A DNA stretch of 64,000 bases, from contig JARUPZ010000013.1 of assembly GCA_031213475.1 (NCBI GenBank), positions 1-64,000 on the forward strand, written 5' to 3'. Positions 6,981 to 56,000 of this stretch are shown piece after piece. This DNA comes from Nereocystis luetkeana. Lineage: Eukaryota; Sar; Phaeophyceae; Laminariales; Laminariaceae. Position 1 is the first letter of the stretch. Every line of letters starts with the position of its first letter. A model generated the notes under the pieces. That model was given only the letters and a program-made list of their open reading frames with translations, was not told the DNA's origin and did no database searches. Both the position numbers and the translations under genes were made by a program.

Positions 6981-8514
6981 GTACATGCTGCACGCTTACT
7001 ACGCGGGTTTGCATTTTCCGTGCCGGAACGAGCGGCGGCCTTCGCGCCTCCGACCTGTTCCTTTTGATTTTATTTTTTATCTTGAGTAACTTCTTTTGGT
7101 AGCTGCGGGTGGCAGCGTTTTATTGTTTTTTTTGTGTGCTGCACCTCTCCTTTCCTTTGCCTCTACGGGGGATACACGCGCTGATAGCGCTCTTCCTGCA
7201 AGCAACTCTGACCCACCGCTGACCACATGCAACCATGGATCACGTGGAAACTCAACCCCACTGGTACCTACTACGGGGTAGGCTGTATCACGGATACAGC
7301 AGCAGCAGTACTGTGCGTCCCGCGCGTACGATAACACCCATGACTCTCAACGGGTGCTCATTATTTAGAGGGTCTGTACTCAATTAATTATTTTATTTCG
7401 GCGGGGAATGCCTGAGTACCAGGTATAATTAATGATGCATGACACAACCAGGAAGCGACTTACTCCCTGGCGCGTGTCCACATCGTTGATTCTCACTCTG
7501 GTACCCTCAGTTTGCGTGCTTGGCTCGACGTGTATTGAACAAATGGCGCAGGTGGGAGTCTTAAAGCTGGCAGCGCACTTGTCAGACCCCCATCACCTCT
7601 TCCACACAGCAGCCAAAATAAAGAATGAATGAAAAATAAGCGTAAGCCTGACGATGATGCGAGGTTTGAGAGCGCGAGTGTCCAAGTGCGCTCGCTTATG
7701 AGACTCTCAGGCACGTGTTCCACAAGCCAGCTGCTGTCACGTACGTCGTTACTGCCGTCGCTTGCCTGTCACGTGCTTGTGTGCTGCCCTTACCACGTGC
7801 GTGTATGTTGCCGCTGCCGTCGCCGCTTCGCCACGCTTCGTTGCTGCTGTTATTCGTGAAAAAAAAATGCCTCACGGCTAACGCAATACATGTCGCCACG
7901 CTTCGTTGCTGCTGTTATCTGTGAAATAAAAATGCCTCACGGCTAACGCAACACACAAATTTAAGGCACGTCCTTTTCCATCCCCCTTTCTTAGTTATTG
8001 TTCTTGCAAGTCACAGGTCGATACGCATCCATGCAAGCCACGTTTTTCTTTTTCATTTGTCTTGGTAATAACGTTATAACTGTGAGTCAGATCATTTTAT
8101 TAGACTACAGTAGGCAAAATTACGTACGTACGAGTATACACTGTGTTATTGCATGTCGACCTCTCTATCTCTCTCTTCAGTAGGTTCACGGTACCGCTGC
8201 TGTACTGCTATGTCACTGCTGTACTGCGATTTGGCCACCACAACCGCTGCTGTACTGCGATTTTGCTGCTGTACTGCGATTTTGCTACCGCCCGACTGAC
8301 TACTGCTGTGCCGTGATTTCGCGCCACTGCCTTAGAACGGGTATGCGTGGTTTTCTCGCTGATCCTATGCTAATTTCCTGTACTGCTGTACCGCGGTGTG
8401 TCTGTTAACGGTATGTCCTTTCGTCTTCTGCACGTTTGCCGCTGTTGTTATTCTTTTACTATGATCATTATTTATTTTTTGTTCACTTTTGATTTTTCGC
8501 CACTGTCGTAATAA
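6981..8514. other. Leader/non-coding interior of the LTR element, first part
   Basis: No gag-like or other credible coding frame is visible. It contains a short tandem duplication (7828-7955) and a TACCAGGTA palindrome at 7417-7425. Codon-sized open frames here are short and in conflicting frames. Confidence 0.55.
7828..7955. repeat. 64-bp tandem duplication
   Basis: The block tcgccacgcttcgttgctg through to acggctaacgcaa occurs at 7828 and again at 7892, with small differences. Confidence 0.85.
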
Positions 8515-11149: not shown

Positions 11150-11161
11150 GCATCACGCCCA

Positions 11162-16070: not shown

Positions 16071-17176
16071 GGTGGCATCAGGTTGAGGCTGACATGACAA
16101 CGCAGCGCCGCGCGTCCGCCGTGGATGGTGTCAAAGGGAATGGGGATGGAGGAGGCAACAGGAGAAGTGGCAGAAAACCCGGCCAAGGGAATGCGGAGAG
16201 GAGGGGGAACATGACGAGTAGAAGGGAAACTGCGGTAGACGAAAGTAGGAAGGGGATGGCAGACAAGGTAGCAAGGCACCAGGTCGACCAGGAAGTAGAG
16301 CATGACCACATGACCATACTACTAGTGCCACCAACTAGTGCAGCTGGTTCGAACGTGGTCTTCCCTTGTCTTCTGTTTTTGTTTTGTTTTTTCCTTTCTT
16401 CCCCTGATTCTCGGTCATTTGTATTTCCCATTTTTCCCTTTTTTGTTTGATAAGCCGTGTTGAAAGAGTCGTGTGCCGTGGTTGGATGACGAACCTGCTC
16501 TGCTCGTTTCGTACTGTCTGAAGCCAAGTGGCTGGGCATAGCTGACGAACGCAGGGCGGAGACGGCAATCTGAGTAGCAAAATGTGTCAGTCGGATTAGC
16601 AGGGAGAACCTCGCTATAATACTCGTACTACGAACTGCTGCCGCCGCCTGGAGGGTGTTTTGGGCTGTGGTCTGCTGTTATTTTCCTTGGTAATGTTTTA
16701 CTTCGTTCTTTGTCTTAGTCTGTCTACAAGCAGGGGTGTTTTTGTTATTTTTTCCTTATTTTCCAGCTCGTTCTTTTGACGTGTTCGCCACCTCGCCTGC
16801 GGGGGGGGTGGGGACGACATATTGTTCTATTAATAGTTCGCTTTCATTTGTTCTTTTTCACGTCCTCTTTGGATTCGTCTTTTTGGTTTTTGTTTCGTCT
16901 TTTAGATAGTTTCCTTTCGTATACATATATTTCATACAATGTGTATGTCGTGCCTGTCGTATCTAGTATGATGGACATGGCATTGCATTGCCCACTCCTG
17001 CTGTGCTTACTGCATACCTGGTACCTGGTACGTGGCAACCTAGTATTTCTGTTGCGTAGCTTTGTGACCAGATCCCTTGTATCTCTTGAAGGATTAAATA
17101 ATCGCCACGGACACTGGTTGCGCTGGATGTCGAAAGTTAGAAAGAACGGTTCAATGGGAAGAACACACACACCGAG
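16071..17176 (+). mobile_element. LINE family A 3' untranslated region and 3' end
   Basis: About 1.1 kb follows the coding part in the same order as in the copy ending at 43560. It includes a purine-rich stretch, a ggttcgaacgtggtc block, a tgacgaacgcagggcgg block, a GC-rich cctcgcctgcgggggg block, T-rich stretches and the conserved terminal module. It ends gaagaacacacacac. Two overlapping TACCTGGTA palindromes at 17015-17030 form a 14-bp insertion relative to the copies at 20761 and 43414. Confidence 0.75.
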
Positions 17177-17242: not shown

Positions 17243-19085
17243 TGTGTGTGTGTTCTTCACATTAAACCGTTGTTTCTACCAGTCGACATCCAGCACAACC
17301 AGTGTCCGTGCCGATGCTTCAATCTCTTCTTTCCCATGGCGTGGGGGTGGAATGTAGATGCGGAGTAGGAAGCATGGCGTATACATACATAGTAGGTAAA
17401 ATATCTCGCTAAATGGTGGGGGTGCATATTCAAGTGAGTACACGCAGGGGAGGAGAATTGGTTCAATGAAGTTAGTGGTATTCGATGAGCTATGTCAGCT
17501 TTTTGATTTTGAATGAATAACGCACTGCACATGGTCAGAAGGCAAATAAAAACAAAATTCTAGAAGAGCTACAACTTCTGTGGTCACAAAGCTACGCCAC
17601 AGAGATACTACGTTGCCACGTACCAGGTATGCAGTAAGCGCAGCAGTGGGCAATGCAATGCCATGTCATCATTCTATTAATATATACGACAGGCACGACA
17701 TACACATTCTATGAAAAAGAGAAACAAAAAGAAACATTCAAAGAGAAAACAAAACAAAGCAGTCAAATAAAAAGAGAAAAAAGAGAAAGAAAAAAAAAGT
17801 TAGAGGGAAAAAAAAAAAAAAAAAAAATGTCGTGCCCCCCTCCCCGCCGGCGAGTTGGCCAACACTTGAAAAAGGACGAGCTCTGAAAAAATGAAAAAAT
17901 AACAATAACATCATTGCTTGTAAACAAAGTAAGACTAAGAACCGAGGGAAAAAAAATAACAAAATAAAAAGAACAAAGGGAAAATAACAGGCAGACCAAA
18001 GCCCAAAGCACCCTCCAGGTGGCGGCAGCAGTCCGGGGTACGAGTAGTATAGCCAGGTTCCCCCTGCTAATCCGCCTGGTACCTTGCTATCCAGACTGCC
18101 GTCTCCGCCTCAGGTTCCCCCTGCTAATCCGCCTGGTACCTTGGTACCCAGACTGCCGTCTCCGCCTTGCGTTCGTCACCTACCCTCAGCCCCTTGGCGT
18201 CAGATAATATGAAACGAGCAGAGCAGGATTGTCATCCAACCACGACACACGACTCCTTCAGTACGGGTTATCAATCAGAAAATGTAGAGAAAGAAATAAA
18301 AAAAAATCACGGAGAATCAGCGCAAAAAAGAAAAAAACAAACCAGAAAGAGAAGACAAGGGAAGACCACGTTCGAACCAGCTGCACCAGTTGGTGGCACT
18401 CTTAATAGTAGTATGGTTATGTTCTACTTCCTAGTCTATTGTTGAGAGCGCCTTGCAGCGTGGGTAGGCACAATTCGATGCGAGTCGAGGAGGGAAGAAA
18501 AGGCTGAAATCTTCTCGCGATAAAAATGAAGGCACGTACCGTCGCGGGAAGGGGGGAGAAGAGCCTGCTATGTGACCCCGGATCTGAGTTACGAGTTGGA
18601 AGGAGAGAGAGAGAACATGTGCGAAGATAATTAATGGGATGAGCAAACAAAAACAAAAAAAGGCGGCCTGGTGCCTTGCTACCCTGTCTGCCATGTCCTT
18701 CCTACTTTTGTCTACCGCAGTTTCCCTTCTACTCCTCCGGTTCCCCCCGCTCTCCGCATTCCCTTCGTCGGGTTTCTGCCACTTCCCCTGTTTCCCCCTC
18801 CACCCCCATTCCCTTTGACACCATCCACGGTGGATGCGCGGCGCTGCCTACTCATCTCAGCCTCAGCCTCGTGCCACCTGAAGCGTTGGGCTGCTTGAAG
18901 GATCCCCCGGTACCACGTCCCCGCCTTCTTGGCTGCTGTGGATCACAACGTGTTCTCAACTCCAAACACCAAGGGGGCAACTTCCGTTGACCCTTCGGTG
19001 GCACGGAACTCCCTGAGGACTTCGACTACGCATCTATGCGAAGTCTTACACTGTCCGCCTGGTCTCGGGTTCTCCGCACTACAGC
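17243..19085 (-). mobile_element. LINE family A copy, 5'-truncated, with insertions
   Basis: The 3' module (17243-17330) is followed by the untranslated region and by the tail of the coding region (about 18870-19080, minus strand). Two blocks interrupt it: 17329-17561, of unknown origin, and a SINE at 18437-18658. A tandem duplication of 57 bp (18054-18167) lies within the untranslated region. The coding part includes only the extreme C-terminus and is not functional. Confidence 0.75.
18437..18658 (+). mobile_element. SINE copy, body only, A-rich tail
   Basis: It begins attgttgagagcgcc, carries cttctcgcgataaaaatg, and ends gggatgagcaaac followed by an A-rich tail. It interrupts a LINE A copy. 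It matches 19990-20262 in the same orientation, and 25540-25890 and 32300-32428 in the opposite one. The tRNA-like head seen at 25790-25885 is missing, so this copy is 5'-truncated. Confidence 0.7.
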
Positions 19086-19210
19086 AGTGTGTAGATACTA
19101 CATACCTGGTATACCTGGTAGTTAGGGTTGCAGTAAGCACTGCAGTAGACAATGCAATCATGCCATCATCCCGGATATGTCAGGCACGACATATAGTTAT
19201 TCTATGAAAC
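19086..19210 (-). mobile_element. LINE family A 3' UTR fragment
   Basis: It contains the gatactac, gcagtaagcactgcagtagacaatgcaat and caggcacgacata blocks of the LINE A 3' region. Two TACCTGGTA palindromes (19103-19111, 19112-19120) sit at the place where other copies have none. Confidence 0.55.
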
Positions 19211-19445: not shown

Positions 19446-19482
19446 TATATTTCTTATTGAAAATAACTTCTGAGGCGTTCGT

Positions 19483-19592
19483 ATTACGGAGGACCATCAT
19501 AGTTGATAGGACTTATGATGTATATACAAACCTATATATTACCCCATTTGTACCAAAAAGTTTTAGTCTTATTAACTACGGTCCCCCGTAAT
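19483..19592. mobile_element. Small MITE-like inverted repeat (110 bp)
   Basis: The left end attacggaggacc...catagttgatagga is matched in reverse complement by the right end tattaactacggtcccccgtaat. The imperfect stem is about 25 bp with an AT-rich centre. The superfamily is not assignable. Confidence 0.5.
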
Positions 19593-19627
19593 GGATGTCT
19601 GACCAGGATATTGTACCTCTTTCGGAT

Positions 19628-20262: not shown

Positions 20263-20454
20263 CTCACTGGACACGACAGCCACGACACAAAGATCTTAAT
20301 GAAATAAATACGTGTCACAAAAAAAAAGAAAATAAACGAGATCCAAACGTGGAAAAAAGGGGGGGAAAATGAAAAACTGCGGCGGCATTCGAAACTTACC
20401 AGGTATGAGCTAAGAAAATGGCAGCAGTACACAACCCAATAGGAACACTACTGT

Positions 20455-20905
20455 AGAGCCTTGGTTCTTTGTCTTACTCTGTTCACAAGCAATGGTGTTT
20501 TTTTCCCTTTTTTTTTCCGGCTCGTTCTGTTTCAAGTTTTGGCGACCTCGACTGCGGGGGGGGGGGCACGACAGATAGTTTCTTCTGCTTTTTTCTTCCA
20601 TTTTTTATTTTCTTTCGATTCGTCTACTTTTTTTTTGTTTTCTCTTTGATTATTTTTTTCCGTTTCTCTATTTCATAGAATTCGCATGTCGTGCCTGTCG
20701 TATCTATTAACAGTATGATGACATCGCATTGCATTGTCCACTGCTGTGCTTGCTGCATACGTGGCAAGGTAGTATCACTGTGGCGTAGCTTTGTGACCAC
20801 ATAACTTGTATATCTTCTGGGATTGAAGAATCGGCACGGACACTGGTTGTGCTGGATGTCGACGGGTAGAAGGAACGGTTTAATGTGAAGACCACACACG
20901 TACAG
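20455..20905 (+). mobile_element. LINE family A 3' end, 5'-truncated
   Basis: It runs from ggttctttgtcttactctg to the terminal ggtttaatgtgaagaccacac. It has no TACCWGGTA palindrome at the gcatacgtggc position (20761), so it serves as an empty-site comparator for the copies at 17015 and 17621. Confidence 0.75.
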
Positions 20906-23165: not shown

Positions 23166-25276
23166 AGGAGTCCGGGGTCACACAAAAAAAAGGTGCTGGA
23201 GCCCTAGAAAGATCCGAAAAACGAAAAAAAACGAAAATTCGGCTGCCCCAAAATACACGAGACGAAGAAAGCGCACACGAGCTAAAACCAATGTGCAAAC
23301 TGAACTAACATGGCCACGGGTATACCCTCTCAACTATAACATAGAGTACCCCCGTTCCCACCACTAACCAACTCGTCGCTGCTGACTACAGCGAATGCTG
23401 TCTGAAGTGCCGCCTGCACCGTACGAAACGCACGGTAGTCGTGAAAACGAAAGAACACACCTGCCTGCTATCTGGAGTGCTGTCAGAGTGAAGACTCGCG
23501 GATATGCAGTGAAAAAAGGAGCAGTCGAACCTTACTACAACACGAATATCAACGATCGCTATCTCTTCCTGGATTGTCTGACACAAAAAGGTGCAGCACG
23601 GTTATGATACCACGTCCCTGATAATTGCGTAGCTTATTCCCCATCAAGGGTATACAACTCGTTAAACTACAAAGACCAGTGACGACGTTAATAACAAGTA
23701 CCGGTAGATACTATTCTGCCTCGTGAAAAACAACACCAGGAAAAAACAAACTATGACCGCTTCTCTCGTGATGATGGCGTGCGCGCAGATCATGAGTCTC
23801 CGTGCACCGTCTTCCTGTCGCTCTTCATGGCCGCCTCATCGCCTTGACCCAATCCACCCGCTCCTTTGCGCGTGCACTCGTTGCCATTCCCTTCCAGTCG
23901 ATTTCCTTTCTCCGTCATCCTGAAAAACAAAATGCTCCTCGCACTTGCGGTACTGATCTGAAAATTAAACAATTTCGCGCAGGGGGAGGTCAATCCGTCT
24001 CTTCCCCGCACGTCGACGCTCAGTCTCCCTCCTCCCTCGTCGTCGAATCCAGCCTCCTACCGGCGCAATAGACTGTGCCGTAGTGTGGCCTGTGGTGGCG
24101 CCTGCCTCCGCGTACGGACACCTCGATTGAGCATTGCTGCTCTGCCGCAGCTGCCTAAAAAAGACGCGCGAATCGTAGGTCGCCGTGCCGTGCCTGACGC
24201 ACCACATACGACCCAACTCTACTGCCGCCTGAGCCTCGCGGCCACAGGCAGCAGCAAGAAGGTATCACTCCTTGAGGGTGAGTCCGGCCTTACACCCGCC
24301 AGAAAGACCTACCCCACTCGCTGTAAGCCTGATAGGGCATGCCTCGCAGCATTCCTTGCCGAGGCAGCGAGGGTAACGGAGTACCTGGTATTGTTTTTTT
24401 AGTTGTGACCGCTCATGAGTGACGTTTCCAACTTCGTGACAAGTAAGGTGCTATCCAGACACAATGAGTGACCATTTGTATGCAGCATCTACCATGATCT
24501 TTGCACACGTTGTAATATCTATGTAAGACAGGGTATGCCCCTCCTTTTTTTCAGTATCAACATTTTCATTTCATTGTTTCGTCCAGCCCTCGAGCCTGAA
24601 ATAGTCAGCAGTCAAATCCGTACACGGGTAATTGCCGCCGTGTTGTAGTACCCATGCATCCGGGTTTCGTTGGGTCATGTTGGCAGTATCGTACGTATCT
24701 GGAATAGAAACAGTCGTATACGTACGAGTAAAATGTGTCCTATTCGTATTATTGTTTATGGTCGAGTAAGTTGTCATGGCGACACCATCCGGTCATCATG
24801 AGATGACGCCTCTCTCAACAATACGAACATTTTTTTGCTTCAAGTCAACAGATAGAAATGTTGATCCATGACGGAGGAAAACTACTCCTTCGCACAAGGG
24901 GTATAGACGATAAACTTGTTTCGTGGCGTATCGTGAAATATTCTCAGCAGAGTCGCTGTAAAAACTAGGTCGGCTCGCATACGCACAACTCTGGAGGTCG
25001 TACGAGTTCCATTACACACCAAGTACCAGTCAGTTCGGGCCTCGATAGTCGGGGTATCGGCAGATACTCGATATAGTTTCCAACTTTATGTACTCCAGGT
25101 ACTCAGTGCTCGTCAGCGGGAACCTCGCAGGTATTCCGTGATTTCACACGAGCTCAGTGTTTTCTTGATTCCGGAGAAGGGGAGAGAGAAGGTTGTGTTA
25201 ACTTTGGTCTGGAAGAGGAGAAGAGAGAGAGGGAGATCGGTGGTTTGTGTGAGGTTGGCTCAACGCTACAAACAGT
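23166..25276. other. No gene seen
   Basis: Only short open frames are present (the longest is about 105 codons at 24085-24402). One TACCTGGTA palindrome lies at 24382-24390. I see no repeat family or conserved motif. Confidence 0.45.
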
Positions 25277-28930: not shown

Positions 28931-28935
28931 TGATG

Positions 28936-30924: not shown

Positions 30925-31145
30925 GTGTGTGTTCAAAATATTAAGCCGTTCTTTCTACCCGTCGACATCAGCACAACCAATGTCCGTGCGGATTCTTCAA
31001 TCCTATTAATAGAAGAGATATATACATGTTCTGGGGAGTTGTTTTGTGCCCACATAACTCGTACCAGGTATATCTCTGGGACTGAGCAATCGACCCGTGA
31101 CACTTGTTGAGCTGAATGTCGACGAGTGGAACGAACGGTTTGGGA
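30925..31145. mobile_element. Two LINE A terminal modules in inverted orientation (foldback)
   Basis: A minus-strand module (30925-31020: gtgtgtgttc, gccgttctttctacccgtcg, gattcttcaatcc) is followed 55 bp later by a plus-strand module (31075-31145: ctgagcaatcgac, gaatgtcgacgagtgg, acgaacggtt). The pair could fold into a hairpin of about 70 bp. Between them, TACCAGGTA (31062-31070) is an exact 7-bp insertion relative to the copy at 20800. Confidence 0.65.
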
Positions 31146-31215: not shown

Positions 31216-32030
31216 GCATTCTCTTCTATACATACGTTTTCATGAGTCGAAATTGATCACCGGAAAGCGCGAGAGCGTGAGTCAGCAACATGAGAAATAA
31301 CCCGACGGCCAATCAGTGGGAACGCCGAAATTTTTGCGCGATGTTAAATTACTTCGCGTACCGGGGATGGGCAGGGACGACGCCTGTAATCACGGCTTTT
31401 GCCCAGAAGATGGCGAGGTGAAAAACCTCTGGTATGCCGCAAAACCTGGAAAGTAATAGTGATGAAACAAAGAAGTAAATATGCGAAAAACCCATTCACC
31501 AACAATACGAGCAGCAGGTGCGCCACCAACTAAGGCATGCATACAATTTTTTAGAACACCTGAAGAGGGGCAAAACAAAATATGGAGAGGAAAACAAAAA
31601 CCACTACAATGCAAAAGGGTCTTTAACGCAGATGGAACAGTTTGTGGAACATAGTAGAATGGGCAGCTGCTACCTACTCTTAATACGTGGTACTGGTTTG
31701 TACATCTACAGTAGTAGTATTGTGACCGTAGATGGATAGCAGGATATAACAACAAGTTCGGAAAACGTAACGAACGAAACAAACTATCTCACAATGAAAG
31801 GGAATACAAAACTACCAGGCACGTCGTAGTAGGAATAATATACCAAACTAAGCTCGGAGGAGAGACGCTCCGACCGAAAGGCGAAGACCAGCTGTGGAGA
31901 GGAAAAAGAGGGGAATACCCCGAGAAGAAAAGATGGGGGAGCAAAAGAAACCAAATACGCCGATCATATATGTCATACTCCGAACGAACAGAAACCCAAA
32001 ACAGGAAAACGAGGCAAGTCAGGACAAATG
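31216..32030. other. No gene seen
   Basis: Short open frames only. The longest (31390-31782, minus, 130 codons) shows no motif. Confidence 0.4.
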
Positions 32031-32428: not shown

Positions 32429-35400
32429 CCACTACCTGGTATTGATCGTAAGTACCTCCCTCGGTCGCTCCCCGGCCGGGGTGGAGCTCCGGCCTGCGGC
32501 TCTCCCAACACGTGCTAGAGCTCCCAGTGGAGCGCGGCCTTGACCTTACTTGCGCGTCTAACTAGCGTTCGAGCATGGTCGAGCCGGCGGTGATGGCCAG
32601 CGATATGGTGGAATTTTTCCTCGCGGTTTTTTTCCACGCGGCAGTATTGCCTGCGGTAGCCGTGTCGTATCACCGTCGCGGAAAGCGTGGAACTCGTAGC
32701 GAACGGAGAAGAGAGGCTAGGATCCACGTGAGTAGGCACCCCATTCGACGTCATCGAGGAGATGATGCGCGTCGAGGCGCGTTGGGATTGCTGCCCCCAG
32801 CACGTCGGAATCTCGGCACGAACCGGGCCGGGCGAAAAAACACGGAACGGAAGAAACCCACCGCCTGGGAAAAGCGGAGGGTAGAGGAGAAAAAACACGC
32901 AGCATGGAAGAAGAGGAGGCAAGGTCGGAAAAGTCGCAGAGAAGCTCGAAGGTTACGCTCAGATGCTAGGGCTAGGTACAGAGCTGGGGAACTCGTCGAG
33001 GGTACGTTCAATGTTCGCACACTCGCCTTCAACGGAAACAATGGCATCGGCCACAGCGAGGTCATCATGAAGGTATGCCAGGAACTAGGATGCGATGTCG
33101 TAGGTCTCCAAGAGACTAGGCGAGACGGGCATAGCACGTTCACAGCAGCTGGATACACGATTTTTTGCTCTGGAGCAGACGGCAGCAAATACGAGAGGAA
33201 GGGCACCCATGGTGTAGGACTAGCTGTCAGGGAGCCTATTGTCGCAGGTGTGGGCAAGGATGGTCTCGAGGTGGAGTGCGTTAGTGCCAGACTGGTGAAA
33301 GTTCGCATTCACCTTGAGGGCAAATCAAATGCTGTTTCTTTTGTTGTCGGCTATGCGCCGATACTGGATGCACCCGTTCGCGAGAAAGATCACTTCTGGA
33401 ACGAACTGAACAAAGTCGTCTCGGGGGTCCCAAGTGGGGCTCACCTACTTGTGCTCTTGGATGCAAATGCTCGCACCGGCAAGCGAGAGAGCGGATGTGC
33501 CGGCAGTACGGTGATGGGTAAATACGGGCGCGATGAATTGAACAACAACGGAGAGTGACTACTCCTCCTCGCAGATGACAACAGGCTTGCGCTCCTCGAC
33601 ACGTTCTTTGCCACACCTTCTCGCGGAGTGTCGTACACTTTCCAATCTCCAAACTCCGGGAAGGGTCAGTGTAGGCTAGACTACATCCTTACTCGGCACG
33701 TCGATCGACGCCTGGTCCGCAACATGACACTACGGAAACCCTCAGAGGATCGGCATGAATCTGCCCACAACCTCGTGGTCTGCAATATTCGCCTCTTCGG
33801 TCCGTTCGCGCCGAATCGGAGGGTAAACGCAGGCAGCGGAAAACGAGCTATTGATCTACAACGGTTGATGGCAGACCCCGGTCTCCGAGCGGACATCAAT
33901 AGGGAGATAACCAAACTTACCCCCCCACCGCCTGGTACAATTGGGAGTGTCGATGATAAGGAAACTGCTCTAGTGGACACTGTGCTGTCGACTGCTGCTA
34001 AACTAGCACCTCATACCAGTCGACAACAAGGACCGCTGGGCTGGTGTACGCCCGAAGAGGTAAACGCAGAGGTGCACTCACGATGGCAGGAGAAGGAAAA
34101 GGTGAGGACGCAACTACGTGCTAACCCGGAAGACAAAAACAAGCGAAAAGCTGTGAACATTGCCACTAAACAGCTCAAACGTGCGAGGACGGACGGAGTG
34201 CAGAAATTCTTCGAGGAATACGTCCGTCAACTCGAAAGGCGTATCCAAGAAGGCGATCAGTTTGGCTCCTACAAGCACCTTAAGGGGATGAATGTGGAAG
34301 GAAAGAGGACATTCCATTCGCAGTACATCAGGAACGAGGAAGGTAGATTACTACGAGACATAGACCTAATCCGGGAACGATGGGTAAGGTGGTTCCATAA
34401 GCTGCTAAACACCAAGTCATCGACCCTCGACCGGGCTATCGTCGATGAGCTCAAGGTCTGGCCTTCGTGCAGTCCGCTGGACGACGTCACGTCTAGATAC
34501 GAGGTGGAGCACGCGATCAGGGCGATGGCGAACCGCAAGGCGGTTGGGCCTGATGGTCTCCCAGCTGAACTTCTGAAGGTCCTGGCCGACGAGGGAGACT
34601 CGGACACCTTGGGAAGCTTCTACGAGATTATCGTCGCTGTGTGGAGGGGAGGGGTCGTGCCGCAGCAATGGAAGGATGCAACGATTAAGGTGCTGCACAA
34701 GAAGAAAGAAAGGACGGAGTGTGGTAACTATCGTGGCATTTCCCTTGTCGCGCATGCCGGCAAAGTACTCCTCAAAGTCATCACACGCCGACTCAGCGAC
34801 TATTGCGAACGGGAAGGCGTCCTTCCAGAGGAGCAGTGTGGCTTTAGGCCCGAACGATCGACGGTCGACATGATATTCGTGGTGAGACGCTTGCAGGAAT
34901 TGGCGAGGAAGAAGGACACTCCGCTGTTCATGTGCTTTGTCGACCTCACCAAAGCCTATGACTCCGTCGACCGAGCCCTCCTGTGGGCTGTCTTGGCTCG
35001 CTTTGGGGTGCCACCTACAATGCTCAACGTTATCAACCAATTCCACGACGGCATGCGAGCATGCGTGCGGCTGGATGACGGCGAGTGCTCAGATATGTTC
35101 GACGTGAAACAGGGCCTACGGCAAGTGTGTGTGCTCGCGCCATTGTTGTTCAACATGTTTTTTACAGCGGTGCTGCGTGTGGCGAAGAAACGTTTCGCTG
35201 CTGATAAAGCCATCACGGACAGCTTGGTGCAACTCCAACAAAAGCAGGAGAAGAAGAAACATAAGAGGGGGAAGGCACGGGTCGGGCACGCCGACGGACA
35301 GGGGAATGATAAAGAGGCCCAGACACTGTGGGCTATGCTCTATGCTGACGATGCAGGCATAGTATCGAGATCACCCAACGGCCTGGAGAGGATAATGACG

Positions 35401-36833
35401 GTGATCGTGTCTGCATGTGCCGCTTTCGGCCTGACGGTCTCGGAGGCCAACACGGAGATAATGTGTCTGCAAACGAAAGATGGGGGGAACGTGCCGTTCA
35501 CCGTCACCGCCGCAGGCCAAGTGTACAAACAAACGACCGAGTTTGTGTATCTGGGCGGTGGGCTATCAGCGCAGATTGGACGGGCAGAAGTGTCGAGGTA
35601 ACGCGTCGACTCCAGAGGGCATGGGCATGCTTCGGACGGTATAAGATGGAAATTTATGACCGCCCGGGTGTGCGCCTACGACTGAAGGTGCGAATACTGA
35701 GATCCGAGGTGATCGAAACGTTGCTCTACGGTTGCGTTACTTCGAGCCCGAGCAAGACTGAGCACGGTAGGCCACGGGAGGTCCACCACAAGATGCTCCT
35801 CCGATGCATCGGGTGGCGAAAACGAAAGCGCGAAGACCACATTCTATCCTATGCTAGCGCGCTTCTCAGGACAAAATCTGAAAGCGTTGAGACGACGGTA
35901 TGCAGACGTAGGCTCTTGTTTGAGGGCTTTGTGACACGCATGGGAGAGGAGCGTCTGTCGAAGAGGGTGCTGTTTGGGGAGATGGTTGGGGGTAAGGGTT
36001 ACCCCGGAGGACAGGAGTGGGACTGGATGAGATACCTTGAGGAGGACCTCAAGGAGTTCCGCATCAAGCTCGAAGGGTGGCGCGAGGCAGCACAGAAAGC
36101 CGGCAGATGGTTCCGACGGGTCGAGGAAGGGACGGAGGCCTTCACGCGGAAATGACATACAGATGAGAAGGAGGCATCGGCAGAACGGCATAGAATAGCT
36201 GCAACAACGACCACAGCCGTTGACGCCAACGCGAGTGTGCAGAATGGCAGGAAAGAGGGGGGGGGCGAAAGGAGGACGAGGGGGAATGGCGGGGGGGGGG
36301 GGGAGGCGGTCTGCCCAACAGCGTGAAGCCTGGTTATGGCCATCATCGTCATGATGCACTCCCTTCTTTGGGACCCAAGTAACTAGCATGGTACCATCTT
36401 GGCAACTTTGCGTGTCTGTATGCTCCAGTGCCTGCCTTTCGTATTTTCTTTCCCCCCCGCCCATGATTATCGCTTTTTTGTCCCTTCTAGTTTTTTTCAT
36501 TTTTCTTTCATTCCCGTTTGTACCTCTTTGTGTCTGTGTCCGTTTTGCCTTTTTCTCGCGTTTTGCTGTCTGCGTCTGTTTTTGTTTGTTTTGTTTTGTT
36601 TTTGCTCTGCTTCATCTTCTTATTTAGGTTTTTGTCTGCTATTAATAGTCTCCTTTTTGCTTCCCTGGTGTCCGCAGTGGTGGAGTGCGTATGCTTGTTT
36701 TTTTGTTTTTGCCTCTGTTTTTACTTGAGGTATTTCTTCCACTCCAGAGTTATTGGAGCCTGTCCTGCGACCACGGGCTGCATTGAATTGTGAGTTAATG
36801 TGAGAACAACAACAACAACAACAACAACAACTA
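32429..36833 (+). mobile_element. LINE family B, near full length, RTE-like, (AAC)9 tail
   Basis: The element runs from its junction with the truncated SINE at about 32429 to an (AAC)9 tail at 36805-36831. It contains one long coding region (32575-36155) with APE endonuclease and RT, then a 3' region of about 650 bp. A single polyprotein without a separate gag ORF, together with a short tandem-repeat tail, is typical of the RTE clade. Truncated copies of the same 3' end with (AAC)n tails occur at 60465-60600 and 62946-63125. The 5' boundary is approximate. Confidence 0.8.
32575..36155 (+). pseudogene. LINE B polyprotein: APE endonuclease plus reverse transcriptase
   Basis: The ATG at 32575 opens a basic N-terminal region, followed by an APE-type endonuclease: FNVRTL, LQETRRDGH, VVGYAP, VLLDANARTG. 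The usual final SDH is SAH here, so the catalytic Asp appears lost. A TGA at 33556-33558 follows NNNGE, and the same frame continues to 35601. RT blocks follow in order: [76 protein letters not shown] and the catalytic LYADDAGIVS (YADD at 35341-35352). A frameshift near 35590 moves the C-terminal part (LLYGCVTSS, LLRCIGWRKRKREDH) to another frame, which ends at 36155. The enzyme would nick target DNA and copy its own RNA there, but this copy is inactive. Confidence 0.9.
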
Positions 36834-39748: not shown

Positions 39749-39984
39749 CAGGCACATTGATTCGCAAGAAGTCCGCGAGCGTCAGTTTGGATAATTCGAT
39801 TGAAATAATAAACCCTATCCGAGAAAACATTATAGGGACGTACCGAGGGGGAAAAGGACGAAGCTTCCTCGTTACCACGGCCTAGGGACACCGTCGCCAC
39901 GCAGTTGAAACCGCGTACGAGATACCAGGTACGAGTTGAGCTTAAATCCAAACGTGACGATAAGAGGGGACGGAAGCAACTGCC

Positions 39985-40229: not shown

Positions 40230-40460
40230 GTACGCAGTGTGGGTGTTCTTCACATATGAAACCTTTATTTCTACCGGTCGACATCCAGCACAACCAATGT
40301 CCGTGTTGATTCTTCCATCTTACAACAAATACAAGTTTGGTGGTCACAAAACTTCGCCATACAAGTTTTGCGGTCACAAAACTTCGCCATAGAGACACTA
40401 CTGTAGGTTGCCACATACCTGGTACCTGGTATGCAGTGGTAACCACAGCAGTGGGCATTA
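40230..40460 (-). mobile_element. LINE family A 3' end, about 230 bp, head to head with the next copy
   Basis: The terminal module (gtgttcttcacatatgaaac, ccggtcgacatccag) is followed by a 30-bp tandem duplication (40331-40360, 40361-40390). Then comes ggttgccac with two palindrome units (40416-40431). It abuts the plus-strand LINE A that starts near 40462. Confidence 0.65.
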
Positions 40461-43569: not shown

Positions 43570-44590
43570 TAACACCATTCTGGATCCGACAGGCACGACA
43601 TAGACATTGTAGTAATGAGAAAAACGAACAGAAACAAAGGAATAAGAAACGAAGATTCGAGAAGAGGAATCCAACGAGGAAAACCAGAAATGAAAAAAAA
43701 GGAGAGACAAACTACTGTCGTGCCCCCCCCCCGCAGGCGATGTGGCAGACACTTGAAAACAACTACCAGGTACTACGGGGGGGCAGAGGTAATAGTACCT
43801 ATGGTAGACACAAAAACCTATAAATTTCCTTTTTTTTGCCAACAATGCTTGGTCCTATTATCTATGGTCCAAAATAATATAATAATATAAGAAAAACACC
43901 GCTACTTGTAAACAGAGTAGAACAAAGAACGAAGGGAAAATAACTAGCAAACCAAAACACAACGCACCTTCTAGGTATAGCGGCAGCAGTTTGTGGATCG
44001 AGTGGCATAGCCAGGTTGCCCCTGCTATTCCGCCTGGTACCTTGCTGCCCTGACTACCGTCTCTGTCCCGCGTTCGTCAACTACGCCCAGCCCTTTTGCG
44101 TCAGACAATACGAAACAAGCAAAGCAGGCTAGTCAACCACCCACGTCACACGATCCCTTCAATAGGGCTTATCAATCGAAAGAAGGAAGATAAATGAATT
44201 GAATGAAAATCCAGAGAATCAGCGCAAGAAATACAAAAAGAAAAGACCAAGGAAGACCACGATCGAACCAGCGGCACCAGTTGGTACGAGTAGTATTCAT
44301 GTCCTACTTGGTAGTCGGCCTATTGATAGTGCGTTCCTAGCCTGTCTGCCATCTCCTTCGTACTTTCGTCCACCGCAGTTTCCCTTCTACTCCTCATGTT
44401 CCCCTTTCTCTCTGCATTCCCTTTGTCGGGTATTCAACCACTCTTCCTGTTTCCGCCTCACCCCGCACTATTCCCTTGAGACACCGCCCACGGCGGATGC
44501 GCGGAGCTACCTACTCATCTCAGCCTCAGCCTCGTGCCACCCCACCATGAACGGCTCGCCTGCTTCGGTGGGCGGAGTTGGATCCGACGC
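43570..44590 (-). mobile_element. LINE family A copy, 3' UTR plus C-terminal tail
   Basis: Starting at the caggcacgacata block, the untranslated region runs to about 44330, then the tail of the coding region (44340-44580) in reverse. A block at 43757-43890 interrupts the family sequence; it begins with TACCAGGTA and ends in AT-rich sequence. The terminal module itself is missing. Confidence 0.65.
43757..43890. other. Unclassified insertion in a LINE A copy
   Basis: Flanking family sequence (acttgaaaac and aaaaacaccgctacttg) is separated by about 130 bp absent from other copies. It contains TACCAGGTA at 43764-43772 and a weak inverted pair (gtacctatggtag and ctattatctatgg). It could be a small MITE. 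Confidence 0.4.
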
Positions 44591-45320: not shown

Positions 45321-46774
45321 GCTCTTGGCAGTACTAAAGCAAGAATTATGTCGAAAACTAACAGTTAGCTACTTCAACGAGGCACGAGTACAGCAATATA
45401 CAGCACAACAACGTAGAGCGCCAGTAAAAACGGTAATAATCCAAGTATCATCAAGCTACCGGTACCTGATAAGTGCGATTATTTTGTGTCATTTATGATG
45501 GACGAACAGCATTATGACGTACCTGGTACTTCTACGTACTAAATAGTAGTTCCTTGATTGTTGGCATTTGACATCACGCACAGCAGTACATAATTGATAC
45601 CTAGTACCAGGTAGTACCTGGTATATTCGAATATCTATCCCAGGCACGACGTATCTGTGTATTTGTTTGTACATTAATTCGTACATACGTGCCCATATTC
45701 GAAGTGAAAGCTCCGAAATCGCATTGCGAATAGAAGGCACCAGGTACCTGTTTTTTTTGCGTCGTTTGTTTTCCACGAGGACGAATATCGTACACACCGT
45801 CAGCAGCCGTGGATACCAACAAACTCAGATATATATTTCTCCACGTATTAATAGTGTTAACTGTAGTATTAATAATATTAATAGCAACCTACGAAGCCAC
45901 CAACGGAAAACAGAGAGTCTTGAGAGATAACTGCAGCATTTAGTGTTTGTCCTAAACGATGTCGTTCAAAAAACGACACGTTGCTACCGGTGGTAGTGAT
46001 GCATCCGCGGTGTAAGCATACCACCAACGGATTTTGCGCAAACCACTAATAATATTATAACAAAAGTAACTGCCCTGCCCACAGAACACAGAAAGAGAGC
46101 AGTTGTTTTGTCCCATGTTGGGCGTCCCAAGTATGTCACCTACCTATAGTATTATACTGATGTACCACACGGTTTGGGTTTCCTTTTGTTTCCGAGGTTT
46201 TCTTCTTTCATTTCGGGAAAGTTATGAGTGATCCATGTTGAAGATCATGCCGCACATTGTCGGATGGCTAGAGAAATAATAATAACACTACACAGTGATC
46301 GTCGGATGGCAAGCATAATAATAGTAATAATATAAAAAAAACGAGAAAACGAACAGCAGAATAGTCTATAAATAGACGCCCTAAAGCATGCAACTCTTGT
46401 TTGCAATAATATATATTACGACGTTAAGAACCAACAAAACTTGAAACAAAATAGAAGTAGCAGTAGTCCTATGGTAGTAGTATGTCGAAGAAATAGTAGT
46501 GGAGCTTCACCATCACACCAATCTGCCAAGTGGCGAGACGATAGAGGACATGTTTTATTTTGCGTTTTTTTAAAGATAATAATGCCATCCTCGAAAATAC
46601 GGAGAACCGGGTTCGATGTCTCGTTGTCCCCGGTGAAAGGAAAAAACGCATGGAGGCCCGAGAAAAGAAGGTTCGAGAGAAGCAAGTTGGAGTAGTCGAT
46701 TCATTTAATTTGTCGTCCCCGCTTTGTTTCCACCCATTTCCACAGCTCGTTGTGGTCGTGTCGACCCACTAAGA

Positions 46775-46999: not shown

Positions 47000-48869
47000 G
47001 ACGCAAAGTATATCACGCGAAACAAACCGCAGACCAACCCGAAATGTGGACAGCGGCATGGTTTTCTTGGCCAAGTATTAATAGATACAGTATTCAACGA
47101 AGCAAACAGGTGTCAGCGTTCGCTCGTCCACTTCTGTTGGTGACGAGTTGGTCAAAACACGTTCTGGTATGTTTTACCTGTACACATGTAGCAAACTCAG
47201 CGTTCAGTGTTCATGCCCGTTCGTCGTCTTGAAGAATGCTGGTGCAAGCTATGAGTTCACTAAACTACGCCAGAGAAGATCTACAAGTACGTGCTGCTGT
47301 ATGTTGTGCGTTGTAAAACAGTTGAAGCGAAAGAGGCACCTAAACACCATATGTCGTACAGGATACCAGGTATGGCAACTACAACAGAACATCAAACAGG
47401 TCACAATCGACGGGAACCCGAAGATGAACATGAAACGAGGGGCGGGGGGGGGGTACATATTCTTATCAGGCAACCGCCTAATTTCGTTCCTCGGCGAGGG
47501 GTTGCCTGTGTTCGACTGAGGCCTCACAGCGACTCTTGCTACTTTAATCCAAATAAAAAAGTATTAGACTATGATACGAGCATACACTCTATTATTATGT
47601 ATCATACTACACTACTAACTGGAATCATAGATGGTCTGGAACCGCTACTGCTACGGAAACTATTTTTGCATGGAGACCCTCTCTCGGTTTTGTTGTTCCC
47701 GGGACGCGCTTAATTCGTACAGTAATTCCATGTACGGGTGTGAACACAACAATATCGTCTTCCTGGACCCACCACGTTACCTTCTTCTACCCTCCATTTT
47801 TATTCGCTCTTTCTTTCGGTATCCACAAAATAATAACAAAATAGCAAGGCGTGGTCTCATAATTTGGCTTGTTTTACGAAGCTGGGTGTGATTATCCGAT
47901 CGCGCGTTTTACGAGGTGCGTAGTAGTTTTTCGGAGTAGTCCAGAATTGCCACAGGTCTGTAGGTAGGTGAAGAAAAAGCCACATATGCACATCTATAAT
48001 ATGCAAAAGAGAAGTAGGCATGCTGCCCTCCGGCGGCCGAGGGTTCGTTCTCGCCCTTTTGGCTGCGGGGCAAGGAAGGGGGCCGCGGGTTTTTTACGAC
48101 GCATCGATCCCGGCTGAGCACCGTGGCTGTGCTCGGTGCATTGAACGTCGCTGGCTCCAAAAAACAAGGGGTTGCTTTCCGCCTCGCCGAGCCGAGTAAC
48201 GTTTTTTCGTCCATTTTCGTGAATAGCCAGCCACCAATAGGATAGTTTATTCCCATTGCTCGCCACCCGCTGTTGTACATATGTTTTCAACTCGACCAAA
48301 ACAAGATACAGCAGAAGCAGGAGCAGAGCAGCAGCAACAACAACATGGAGGATCAGGATAACACATAGGTCGGCGGTCGTATCTTTTGCACCAAGCTATC
48401 GCACGGGTGTACAGAGGCAGCAGGCAATCCCAACGGAGAAGAGCAACAGAGGCCGGCCCATGCTGCCTTCGGTCTCGCTGTACTGTGTCTCGGTGACGGA
48501 CCTACAAAGTAACAGGACCCACTTTGCTCGACTGCCTGGCCGATGCCCTATTTGTAGGACGAAAGTGGCACACTTGTGTGATATATGATGGATACGACAC
48601 CCACTTGCAACAACGAAGAAATTTGCCTGCGTTGAAAATATTAATAATCTAAAAATCGCCCAGTTTTTTACCCTCCACTTTTTTGTTTTTTATCAATATC
48701 ACCGGACACAGCAGCAGCAGTACACACGTCTTTGGAGCGTCCTGTATGTTTCTCCTGGCCCTTTGGCATACACCACGCACCTGGCTCCCTTGGTCCGTCT
48801 GCCTGGGGCAAATTGGTACGAGGTACTTACGACAGTGGTAATTGCATAATATGTACCATACCTGGTACC
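47000..48869. other. No gene seen
   Basis: Open frames reach 140 codons (47291-47713, plus) without any motif. One TACCAGGTA lies at 47364 and one TACCTGGTA at 48859. Confidence 0.4.
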
Positions 48870-48913: not shown

Positions 48914-49010
48914 CTCAGCAGCACGTAATCGCACCGGACAAGAGCCACATAGCCTCATTCTGCCGCCCGTCTCCCTCCATCCCTTCTGTCTCGGTGTGCA
49001 TCCTGCGAAG

Positions 49011-49198
49011 TCGTAGTAGTAGTTGTTGTAGTAGTACGTAGTACAGTGATAGTAGTAGTAGGAGCAGCAGCAGCAGTAGCAATGGTAGTACTAATAGTTT
49101 TAGTAGCAGTAGTGGTACAGCAGCAGGGCAACAGTAGTAGTAGGTAGTAGTAATAGTTGGCGTTTTAGTAGTGGTGGCAGTAGTAGTAGTGTAGGAGT
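49011..49198. repeat. Degenerate AGT/GCA trinucleotide tract
   Basis: Runs of agtagtagt and agcagcagc with many interruptions. The Leu/Thr-rich and Tyr-rich minus-strand frames here are products of the repeat. Confidence 0.9.
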
Positions 49199-50825
49199 GA
49201 TGCCCTTGCCACGAGTCTGTTGTCGTATTGTATAAACATAAGTGTATACCTGGTACTGTTTTTGACCGTAAATAATTCCAACGGAGACCCAAAAATTCCA
49301 TGACGAGTCCAGAGATGTTTTTTTCATGTTGCCCTTAATCGTATGTAGAATGGTGTACAGTACCAGGTATTGAGTACAGTGGTAATGATTATCCCAGCGG
49401 AGTAGCTGCCTATCGGTGTTGATAATTAATGATGATGCTCGAGTTCCACTACGACTGCTGCTGTTGCCACGAGCCAACTGCGGTTGGCGTGAGTATTTGT
49501 TGGATAGACGTTCGAAACTCTTCATGTGAAAAATAATGCATACCTGGTATAACATTTTCACTACTCGTACTGTGCATCAACCGTACCTACACCTGTACAT
49601 GACTGAATACAGAGTAGATGCTGCCTCCTATAATTATATACCTGGTACGTAGCGATGTTTTAGGTTATTTGGCCTTTCCGTACTTACGACTCTGTTTCAG
49701 ACACGCATGTATATACGTATAGGTACAGCACTGTAGCCCAATCTTGTTACGCTTGACATCCGACAACATGCAGCGTGAGCTTCAACACCGATCAATAAAA
49801 AAACCCCTGAAAGATACACGGGGAACCCATGCACAAGGTACATCTACGTTATATGTCTACTTCCTTTTATGCTCTTATCTACAACACTCTATGTGTTGTC
49901 TTTGCTCCGTCATACATATTTTAATGTGTACTAGATACTTTATATTCTCATATCCTAAGCCGCAGCTAAGCTCCATCCCCACGCCGTCGTTGTGGGTCTG
50001 TCACCCCCCCCTCTGCTCCTTCTCGATTTCCGACGACCCCTAAGCTGGAATCTAAATAGCGACATCCTCCTCGAAATCGTGACCTGTGTAGTCACCGAGA
50101 CTATTTTGAAGAAAGGATCATAACCTCGAGAGTCATGACCTGAAGGAATAATGCATGTGTCGAGGCTCTGTCTCAGTGAAAAGACAGATGGCAGAGGTGG
50201 CACCGAAGTGTCTGTGAAGATCACTTGTGATGAAAAAGATGGGGTGAAATTGGCGCTTCATTGGCCCTTATAGAAGGAATCTTGCTCTCTGATATCAAGA
50301 GAAGAGGGAAGAGTGGAGGTGAGGAGAGGAAAGGAAAGGAATGGTCGAGGTGGGCGCTGCCATCACCTGATCACGAGACAATGCCCATGCTACGGGCAGG
50401 TTTATTCTTCAGCAGCCCGTCAAGGTTCCGTGAACCGTTCCTAGCAATGTCCCTGCAACGTTCTATGTAGCGTACTCGTAACGTCCTATGGAACATTACC
50501 TGCTACCTATTGTGGTGGACTAGCTACCCTGCGTTACGATCAGTATGATAGAGATAAGTTGAATACAGTGCGTCGGCAAGAAAGATCAAACTCAAGTTTT
50601 GCCGCATATCGTATTCCTCCGCATCTATCCTACGATACTCTTAGTAAGCTCGTGTGAAGTTGCACATCACAAAATATATGGATGTCAACGTCGCCTTAGC
50701 AAGTTAAGTGCTGAGCGAGCGGTAATACTTTACCAACCTGATTTTCGAGACAATTCGGAACTTATTCCGAATATTTCCAGATTATGCTCCCGAGTGTGGC
50801 CGCGCCCCAGATGGCGAATAGCGTA
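49199..50825. other. No gene seen
   Basis: It contains four TACCWGGTA palindromes (49247, 49361, 49541, 49639). The open frames are at most about 150 codons and overlap each other. Confidence 0.4.
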
Positions 50826-51673: not shown

Positions 51674-53015
51674 CGCTACGCCCTTTTGCCTTGAAATCCA
51701 CTACCTAGTATACTCGATATTGTTGTCCTGTATACCAGGTATTTCGTTTCAGTACGGGCTGGTTCCAGCGACACCCGAGACTTAACATCTTCGCACTTTC
51801 GCTCTTTCGTTCTGAGAGTTGGAAATCGAAGTCTGGCATTGTTGTGCATCATGACAACATGAAGAAACTGACCCCTCTGTTTTTATTTTTTCTGATTTGT
51901 TTCTTGAGACACATCTTTTTGTTTTTCAATAGTTTTTCGTCAACATTTTCCGCCCTTTATTCACGAAAAAAAAAAAAACTCTCTAAAAAGACCAGACGTC
52001 CGTTTTTTCACAATGCCATGACGTACAACCATGCCAAGTTTTGTTTTCCAACTCTCAACAACCCAAACCGCAAACGTTATTCCCTTCAACAAGAAATTTA
52101 TCCCTAGATGTTTGTCGAAAAGCTCGGAACGCTCGGTATGCATTGTTCTTGTACTTTGGCAGGCGTCAAATTGCATTGCCTTGCACGCTTCGCGCAACAC
52201 AACAAGTGTCCCAGACGTCTTCCCCTTGTCGATAGGGTACTCCTGTTCCTTTCCCGTCAGGTTAGTCGGCTTGCTCAATCGAAGCAATGATGGCTGCCCG
52301 TAGTGGCGAACATGTGTGGAATATTATACGGCCGGCACTGCAGCTATCACTTGAGTTGAGGCTGCACGAAAAGGTATTACGTACATACCCTTATCTTACC
52401 TCTGTATGCTGCGTCAAAAATTGGCCTCGGAAGGCGTGTTTATCTTCGCAGAACATCAAAAGTGTTTTCCAATCATCTCAACCGACGAGTGGAGTTTTGA
52501 TGTAAAGCGATCTCGTCCAGCTTTCGACCCGAACAGTATCAGTCTGAGCAACTTGCTTTTCTTAGTTCAGGCGCAACGCTATATATGATGGACATATCAC
52601 ATTCAATCATTACGTACTTCGTCAAATCCTCTGGCGTGTACCGTTTGTCAGCCGTTCAGGTGGCACCGGGCCTTGACAAGGTACCTTTTGATAGATCGGT
52701 TGACGGCAAAGTAAACAAATGAGGGTATCTACAGGTGTCGAGTCACTTGTACGTTCAAGTAGTATCGCAGTCGGGCTCTGCTTTCTGGCCCTCCCTATTT
52801 TTAGCCAGCCCCCGGATGTACCTTTTTCTGGCGGAAAGGTTCAATGCACACCTCCCTTTGTCTACTCATGCTGGGCTCCAGGTATCTTTGGCTTACACTG
52901 AAGCTCAGTTGACTCCTTACCTGGCAAGACTGGAATACGGCCACAGGGCCGTCAGAACAAGGTGGACCTACTTGTAAACCAAAAATCACGATTTCTAAGC
53001 GAGCTCACGCTTTGC
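51674..53015. other. No gene seen
   Basis: Short frames only. One TACCAGGTA at 51734-51742. Confidence 0.4.
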
Positions 53016-53038: not shown

Positions 53039-56000
53039 TTGACTTGTCATAGGGTACCGCACGGTCCAAGAGAACCCAGTGAGAAGCTGCGTTGTTGGCT
53101 AACACAAGTTTTCAAGTTGGGGTATAGCCCCCTATTGGTGGGTACAGCTTGACCCATTTGTATGTATCCTGCGTAGCCACAGAGAGGTGAACCTGGAACC
53201 ATGCAGCCAATATCAGGTACGATAGGGCGATTAGCAAACAGAGGAAAGGCCAGCAACCCTTCATGTTTGTACAATATTTTTGGTAGCTTATGTTGGCTCG
53301 AAACGCGTATGTACACCTATTTTTGGTTTGTCATCGTTGGGTTATATCACCGGAAGCGAACCATTCAAAGGTGATCCGACAAGGGCGCCGTTGCTTTGCG
53401 GGGCGACGCCCAATGCTTGTGTGTACAATATACTATAATACATTGTTGTTAGCAGGAGTAAATGCTTGTGTTAATAGTATCTAAAGAGTAGTATTTCCCA
53501 AAACCCGAGACTCTCACAAACACAGCAATATAATCCTCGATGTATGCCTGTTTTCGACAACCGTTTGGAATCCTCGTAGGTTGGGAGAGACTGCGGAACA
53601 TAAAGCCGGCCCTCAACCTTCCGTAATCGTGAGCATCTAGTTAACGACGAAGTCTTGCGCCCCAGCGATCTATGGTAGCCATGTTTATCGTCCAGTGTAT
53701 ACCCCAATTTTTCGTCAGACGAGACAATGCTATCCACGATGAAACCTTAAAGTCAAACGCGTTCCTGTGTTTCTGGTGGCTCACTATTCTCTGGGGCAGC
53801 TCCATCACGTCGGGGGGTGAGGTCTTGAGGGATAGGGCGTGACCCCTGTTTTTGTGGGCATAACGTTCACATGGAACAACCCTAGTACATCACACTTATA
53901 CCAAGCAAGAGTAATCCCCTTACCTGTTTCGTTTCCCTGCACATCTAAGGTAGTGCAGGCGCAATGAAAGAAGAGTGTCCGGCGCACGCACGGGTGGGTT
54001 GGGCCGAGCCGGAGTCAGTTCATAGACGGGCCCTCATGATGATGTAAATGCCCCTCAAAGGGTATATATAAATCGTCGTCGTACATAAAAAGAAAATGAA
54101 ATCATTCCCAAATACCGTCAGCCATGTATCTCTGCACCGAGTAAGGGAGACCACTGGGCAGCACCCCTGGGCTCTACTTGGCGAAAAGGATAACAATATA
54201 TAGCTAATTAATACCTGGTATGGTGGTAAGACAATATCACCTGACGCCTGGAAACTATTTTTAATCCTCAAAGACGATAAGTCAAGACGATCTATACCTA
54301 GAACCACAATCATAAACCTCTATTATTTGCTTGAAAATTCTAACCCAAAACGTCGGTATCTCAGATATAAGATGCATACGAACAGGAAAAATTGCAAGGA
54401 AAACAAGACAGTCCCAAGCTCAACCTCAGTGTATACCTCTCAACACCATAGTTACATTTCGTGTTTCGTTGTAACTAAAAATCATAAATCACGGGAGGGA
54501 TAGAAATACACCCGCTCCTCGAAACTCAAAATTTTGTTAATCAAAGCAAAAATAAAACCTGAGATCACAAAGAAATGCGAAGTCAGCTCGTCAGACTCTC
54601 AAGAGATGGGAATATAACGGCACAAAACTCGACAATAGTTGACCGGAGAAAACCTATCGGCAATATTCCAGGTAAAATTCACCACCTCGAAGGTCATAAA
54701 GAGAAGATCAACTCCTCAAGTATCACCCAATAAACTATTTTATCAAATATCAGAAACCTCAACACCACCCCCTGATAATCATGAATTTTCTGTTGTATTC
54801 TGTCTCTCTATCGTGGGTCATTTCAAGAAAGTATTGGGTTCGATGATACCTCCTTCGCCGGACAGGAGATCTCATCTATCTCATCTATCTAGTAATCCCC
54901 CCGCGCTGAGTTGACTAGCGTATCACATACTACTCTGCGCGTTGTTAATACCTGTGAATGATCGGGGTGGGTGGGATGTTCTAATACTAATCTGACTGTC
55001 CGATAGGGTAGGATGGTCACACGACATGTTGCCACCAACTCTACTACAGAAGTGTAGGGAGCGAGAAGAAGTGGCCTCGTTGCTATACAAAGTTCGAGAT
55101 GTTTTATCTCGTCGATGTCCATCGTTTGTGCCAAGTTCTACCTTGTCGTTTGGAACACAATTTAACTCTTATTGCATTCTGTCTGGCTTCGTGTATCGTT
55201 CGATGTAAGCATCTGGTTGGGTTAGGCATCGCCTTCCGGCGTGTGACCCCGCCTGTACTTCGTTTTGCCTCTTTCGCTTGAACGTGTACTTGACCACTGG
55301 TCAAGGGCAGTGTTGTCTCTTCCAAGATTCTTCACCACTGACTCAGTCCTTTCCTGCACACGCTGCAAAGGCTTTTTCGAAATATGGGGACAGTGGTAGC
55401 TCGCTAGCGACCGTGTAGCTCTGGTCACGTTTCCTGTAGCTACCGTGCACTTGCCCACTAGAGATGGCCCCGATGTATAACGTCGCAACTGATTCTGTCT
55501 TTCTGGCACCAATTTCCAACGGCCGTGCCGGCAAGGGATTTGCTGATCGAGTATCTGACTCGAAAGGATTGCATCATGATGTGGTTCGGTAGCCCTGTCA
55601 TCCGCAGACACAGTTGCAGGTTCGCCGTCAACGGGCTGCGGAGAGAGAGACGGCCCCGACCACCTTCGGCGGCAATAACAGGCAACCGGTGTCAGGTGGC
55701 TATGTCCCACTCAATCACCTGTGCGGTAGAGATGCACGCCAGATACGTACAAAACGCGATGATCGCTGGGAGGTCTCGGGTCTGCTAGCACCAGCACTGC
55801 CCCGCTAGAAACCCGACGTATCTTAGCAAAACTGAAAGTTGAAGATCGGCATCCTGAGAGCTGAGAGGGAAAACATGTGTGACCCTATTATAAAAAAAAT
55901 AGGGCGACTCGTACCCATCAAATATTAAGCAAACATGACATAAACCCATACCTCGCATCAGAGATAAACACTCAGCCAGAGAGCTGGCAACTTGTGCGTG

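Follow-up and report, generated by a model that had tools for sequence, protein, structure and literature searches.

What places the same nine-base palindrome, TACCWGGTA, at so many sites in the genome of a brown alga? The question is raised by one end of contig C13 (JARUPZ010000013.1) of the Nereocystis luetkeana assembly GCA_031213475.1 (465,085,209 bases in 1,987 contigs), of which we analyzed bases 1-64000, hereafter the window. A preliminary description of this DNA, made from its letters, had counted 25 copies against about 0.5 expected, and proposed that they are footprints left by excision of a TA-targeting transposon. Our analysis bears this proposal out largely, though not fully: the enrichment, the clean insertion at TA with duplication of the TA, the A or T center (W) and sibling inserts are all observed, and the source element has not been found in the part of the genome that was read. 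We consider it probable that TACCWGGTA is the excision footprint of a TA-targeting element of the Tc1/mariner/pogo type, with a tip of five nucleotides, CCWGG.

The count itself stands: the window has 25 copies, and 100 shuffles that preserve dinucleotides give an expectation of 0.50, with at most 3 in any of them. Among odd palindromic 9-mers, the motif ranks first both in the window (25; runner-up, 4) and in a 273-kb sample of loci (105; runner-up, 20); sample counts exclude L004, L005, and L008, which overlap with other loci, and most counts were made with the telomere removed or masked. The enrichment also extends to the whole genome, contrary to one outcome that would have refuted the earlier proposal, with 182,395 copies, or about one per 2.55 kb, compared with 1,744 for the reversed word; this and the other genome-wide controls are reversed words, whose composition differs from that of the motif. 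Copies are spread almost evenly (over 22 stretches of 10 kb each, the mean is 3.8 and the variance 4.2), and nine viral contigs each carry one doubled unit. The EsV-1-7 domain, which is a mark of brown algae, matches at all 150 places scored, among 1,721 candidates, and in none of 14 control genomes.

Clean insertion at TA and the preferred target

The case for insertion comes from copies of repeats with and without the motif. The inserted part was cut from each run of the motif, and a gapless alignment of a repeat copy over the joined flanks was scored as empty, and over the intact site as filled. Ten of the 117 TACCWGGTA runs were alignable, and all ten have an empty copy (38 empty copies in all), one of them also having a filled copy. 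Among 2,965 random 7-bp cuts, 693 were alignable; a filled copy existed for 684 of these and an empty copy for 31. Among 1,038 other TAN5TA sites, 200 were alignable, and the corresponding numbers are 187 filled and 21 empty. The excess of empty copies in TACCWGGTA runs is strongly significant against both (Fisher test, 1.5e-13 versus random cuts and 1.2e-9 versus TAN5TA). In each of the ten alignable runs the empty site has one TA, and the remnant is bordered by a TA at either end. TACCWGGTA is a clean 7-bp insertion at TA with duplication of the TA, in agreement with the earlier statement that every insert duplicates a TA; the outcome that the preliminary description had set against its own proposal, a heptamer present at the homologous sites of all repeat copies, is not what is observed.

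The window also holds the before/after pairs pointed out earlier. One unit (TACCAGGTA, 17621..17629, within a repeat and with 9 empty copies) and two units (TACCTGGTACCTGGTA at 17015..17030, for which 7 copies are empty and 1 is filled, and again at 40416..40431, both doubled units within repeats) correspond to none near 20761, 43414, and 25400. The TACCAGGTA at 31062..31070 is a 7-bp CCAGGTA insertion relative to the copy near 20800, as had been described, and relative to several repeat copies; one more gap of 1 base lies a few bases away. Another unit, TACCTGGTA at 45520..45528, lies within a repeat of ~1.8 kb (45200-46993) whose ends are inverted (query 1-107 matching 1604-1712) and whose first part is matched at no fewer than 26 other places over 618-975 bases. 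Among the best 40 of 156 candidates for this repeat there are 39 other copies, 15 of them with a length of 105 bp, 5 with 112, and 1 with 119, the remaining 18 being of other lengths or partial and the window copy measuring 116; these are lengths only, and they fit 7-bp steps in part and prove nothing.

The other positions in the window are as follows, no strand being assigned to these or any later features; 24 of the 25 coordinates given earlier are exact, and one was off by one base (51733, not 51734). TACCAGGTA occurs as a single unit at 7417..7425, and at 20397..20405, 39923..39931, 43764..43772, 47364..47372, 49361..49369, and 51733..51741, while TACCTGGTA occurs at 24382..24390, 32433..32441, 48859..48867, 49247..49255, 49541..49549, 49639..49647, and 54212..54220. 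Two units stand side by side (TACCTGGTA TACCTGGTA) at 19103..19120, and TACCAGGTA and TACCTGGTA are separated by 1 base at 45605..45623. The stretch 46992-50109 is 88% identical to C3:420935-424055, and its window copy holds six TACCWGGTA.

The insertion has a definite target. In 87 of 125 units, R precedes the first TA and Y follows the second (A_C 31, G_T 21, A_T 18, G_C 17), a share that the doubled units raise slightly, compared with 38% of all TA. With runs merged, 82% of the 234 flanks have R at -1, versus 60% before any TA, and 60 of them (0.26) have a second TA at -7, versus 0.08 around RTAY generally; at -8 the values are 0.14 in the flanks and 0.12 around RTAY, and for the siblings described below the values at -7 are 0.11 and 0.09. 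The target is RTAY, and sites where another TA lies at a distance of 7 bp are favored.

Doubled units make up 8 of the 97 runs in the sample, the other 89 being single. Genome-wide, the pair pattern totals 32,496 matches versus 381 for the control. By eye, 58 of the first 100 pair-pattern matches listed, all on contig C1, are doubles (positions of genomic patterns are throughout those of the first 100 matches listed), with equal centers in 39 (AA 22, TT 17) and mixed centers in 19 (AT 14, TA 5). A unit itself offers a TA, a spacing of 7 bp, and a G before the TA, and can thus account for doubles, which are compatible with insertion at a footprint's TA as proposed earlier. Mixed-center doubles need separate events or later change.

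Excision as the probable origin

In the mechanism that we favor, a TA-targeting cut-and-paste element, either autonomous or a miniature inverted-repeat transposable element (MITE), would insert at RTAY, favor a second TA 7 bp off, and duplicate the TA. On excision, the transposase would leave the first five nucleotides of each tip, CCAGG/CCTGG, as 3' overhangs. Four of the five bases in these overhangs would pair, with an A.A or T.T mismatch in the middle, and its repair would set the center as A or T to give TA-CCWGG-TA. Scars would be hit again as good targets, producing the doubled units, and, judging by the share of mismatched copies, would accumulate and decay over a long time. A or T occupies the center of 125 units, compared with C or G in 9, as the preliminary description had claimed. 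Blunt filling of 3-nt tips was considered and rejected, the expected words TACCATGGTA and TACCTAGGTA both being absent from the sample.

The same genome carries footprint-like siblings, namely CTACWGTAG, CTATTAATAG, and TACCGGTA, each found as an insert relative to empty repeat copies. CTACWGTAG occurs 28,313 times genome-wide versus 3,124 for the control; the flanks of its first 20 sites differ (by eye), and 3 of 23 sites were alignable in the empty/filled test, 1 with an empty copy. In a repeat resembling a short interspersed nuclear element (SINE-like; window 48780-48915, L032:6116-6300 and 6621-6780, L009:2691-2800; variable core), the CTAG of L009 corresponds to CTACAGTAG and CTACTGTAG in two L032 copies. 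In the window, CTACTGTAG at 40398..40406 is a 5-bp insertion, CTGTA, relative to two repeat copies, and the motif is also present at 20448..20456 (CTACTGTAG) and at 8105..8113 and 31706..31714 (CTACAGTAG). For TACCGGTA, 3 of 13 sites were alignable, 1 with an empty copy, the site L021:5415 having 12 of them. Two further words were rejected as scars: ACTCSGAGT, which has 10 of its 20 sites in one L030 stretch and 4 in one L018 stretch, in tandem-like contexts, and TACTCGTA, an 8-mer with 37 sample sites (about 5-fold above expectation), 7 of which were alignable, all filled and none empty.

The third sibling, CTATTAATAG, occurs 22,282 times genome-wide versus 267 for the control, with 2 of 11 sites alignable and 1 empty. 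At L020:5137, it is a 6-bp insert relative to repeat copies, also with an empty copy in the empty/filled test, and in the window it is a 6-bp insertion at 31003..31012, which a repeat copy in L024 lacks; it also stands at 36639..36648 and at 16827..16836, where the sole alignable copy has other letters. The sample contains a TA-flanked MITE of ~105 bp with ends TTACGGGGGACC, of which the window has a copy at 19482..19593, and L003:814-941 shows a 102-bp MITE insertion relative to an emptier copy. Sixteen of the 36 matches to the MITE end have C before the TA, and some of the 36 look like chance. A TT tip contributing two bases from each side would yield TA-TT-AA-TA, that is, CTATTAATAG, and we propose this MITE as a possible source of CTATTAATAG, whose letters fit its TT tip; the link is by sequence, with no shared site.

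Several observations weigh against an excision footprint. The empty/filled test was possible for only the ten runs described, and no element with TA-CCWGG ends was found in the ~0.31 Mb that hold the 117 runs and amount to <0.1% of the genome. Among 95 half-sites, only two look-alike pairs were seen, one tandem and one in a shared repeat. The DDE_3 transposase has no match genome-wide (3 of 14 control genomes matched), and neither has Transposase_1, which matched in none of the control genomes either. The pogo-type DDE_1 domain does have 28 matches in the genome, which count in favor of a footprint, 15 of them without an internal stop in the match and none tied to CCWGG ends; at two pogo loci no convincing TA-flanked terminal repeat was found within 2.7-2.8 kb, since L035 has as its best a TA-flanked pair with 13 of 20 bases alike, and L036 has none. 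This is a weak test, since an autonomous element of Ectocarpus measures 4.4 kb according to excerpts of a transposon survey that also lists, in favor of our reading, 17 Mariner-Tc1 families there, with 11,912 mostly non-autonomous copies (PMC12477816). Equal-center doubles exceed the half that independent repair predicts (p 0.012), and some doubles may therefore be duplications. Finally, the remnant of 5 nt is longer than the 2-4 nt or so of known examples; the remnant is 3 nt in CTACWGTAG and 4 nt in CTATTAATAG.

Two candidate sources were examined and set aside. A recurring 26-28-bp TACCTGG...CCAGGTA (7 of the first 100 pair-pattern matches listed, by eye) was read at one place, L032:6670, where it lies in the SINE-like repeat, and similar stretches occur in L009 and the window; a 29-bp TACCTGG-15-CCAGGTA at L007:2208 has no second copy among the sample pairs.

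Comparison with known systems gives a similarly mixed picture, as far as excerpts of the cited papers go. Sleeping Beauty leaves a tip-derived remnant, CAG, produced from 3' overhangs by end joining (PMC8151067). It shares with the kelp motif the TA target and its duplication, and the sibling CTACWGTAG has its layout; however, its remnant is 3 nt as opposed to 5 nt for CCWGG, another point against our reading, and here there are 182,395 copies and no source element in the ~0.31 Mb read. The 5' inverted terminal repeat of Mos1 begins CCAGGTG, which makes CCAGG a real tip of a TA transposon, but its overhang is 3 bases (PMC3419177). Passer, a pogo element, inserts at the TA of the palindrome AAGTACTT, which fits RTAY, and this genome has the pogo DDE_1 matches noted above, whereas Passer footprints measure 0-4 bp (PMC9976928). 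IS630 prefers CTAG, according to a title cited in PMC2170065, and two sibling inserts are located at CTAG; unlike our case, it is bacterial, and DDE_3 is without a match in this genome. The motif thus works like a Tc1/mariner footprint; it is not an established member of that class, since the search for a source, over a small share of the genome, was negative and the remnant is longer. No report of TACCWGGTA as a word was found in the literature searched, and none of such scars in a brown alga in titles and abstract openings among the top matches of one literature collection; the main text of the Ectocarpus survey contains neither "footprint" nor "palindrom", nor "excision" as a whole word.

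Competing explanations

Some ~180,000 scars with no filled site in ~0.31 Mb could also mean that no larger element was ever there, and that a nano-element, the 7-bp CCWGGTA itself, was inserted at TA at each of these places with a preference for a second TA 7 bp off. The short CCWGG would be placed between duplicated TAs by a transposase or by some other enzyme that cuts at TA and works with a repair partner. The preferred spacing of the second TA equals the length of the unit, and doubled units are frequent. On the other hand, the A/T center and the sibling scars, one of them fitting the tip of a TA-flanked MITE, are predictions of excision. We know of no enzyme that performs such an insertion, and we regard this explanation as unlikely, although it survives better than the others.

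It is quite unlikely that the inserts arose by break repair without a transposon, with a host or viral nuclease cutting TA and end joining adding a fixed palindromic filler. A nuclease and a template would suffice for a target preference and a short fixed insert. However, at least three fillers with TA duplication would require as many templates, and to our knowledge a fixed 5-nt filler with an A/T center is not a usual product of end joining.

A protein-binding or structural palindrome, spread or kept by selection, was the main alternative in the preliminary description, and the palindromic form, high copy number, and near-even spread would suit it. HIP1, DNA-uptake words, and the mitochondrial PstI palindromes of Neurospora are likewise very frequent short palindromes or words; TACCWGGTA differs from them in being an exact, TA-duplicating insertion in a nuclear genome, which also speaks against a binding palindrome. 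Copies with one mismatch number 131 versus 58.5 expected (background with the motif masked), with an excess at each of the nine positions, of which a palindromic word leaves five independent. Genome-wide, 367,383 copies have at most one mismatch, compared with 66,255 for the control, and by both counts the ratio of excess one-mismatch copies to exact copies is ~0.6, a ratio that as a measure of age is based on 125 sites and one background model. We take this one ratio to mean that copies have accumulated over a long time and decayed without any core position being spared. A selected site would have its core spared from decay, and decayed copies in excess everywhere therefore argue against it, leaving this alternative disfavored and very improbable.

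Tandem-repeat slippage or an assembly artifact is hardly credible: doubled units are present, with equal-center doubles in excess, but 89 of 97 runs are single, single units have empty copies, and 19 of 58 doubles have mixed centers.

If the motifs are excision scars, the genome would be a countable record of excision that covers several element families together, with a scar of a single type every 2.55 kb, and one assembly could reveal the rates and target rules of DNA-transposon activity and how old it is. If no source element exists, they would point to a new way of DNA insertion.

Surroundings of the sites

The window opens with a long (CCCTAA)n telomere array, from 1 to ~3582, and is thus one end of contig C13. 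A retrotransposon integrase frame with the domains rve (integrase core) and Integrase_H2C2 occupies 11150-13324, and frames of a non-LTR (long terminal repeat) retrotransposon with endonuclease and reverse transcriptase domains lie at 32566-36155. Between them, the stretch 28927-29695 is of low complexity, with several frames open (poly-L, poly-S, poly-P, poly-E, and poly-R). At 40724-40850 and at L021:8428-8816 there is a piggyBac-like inverted-repeat element that carries CAGTCCCGTTTTGGGGACAA close to its ends and seems to be bordered by TTAA. Inverted-repeat inserts of 395 bp are present at L019:2372-2792 and 4138-4558 relative to L032, with apparent 4-bp duplications, CAAG and TAAT.

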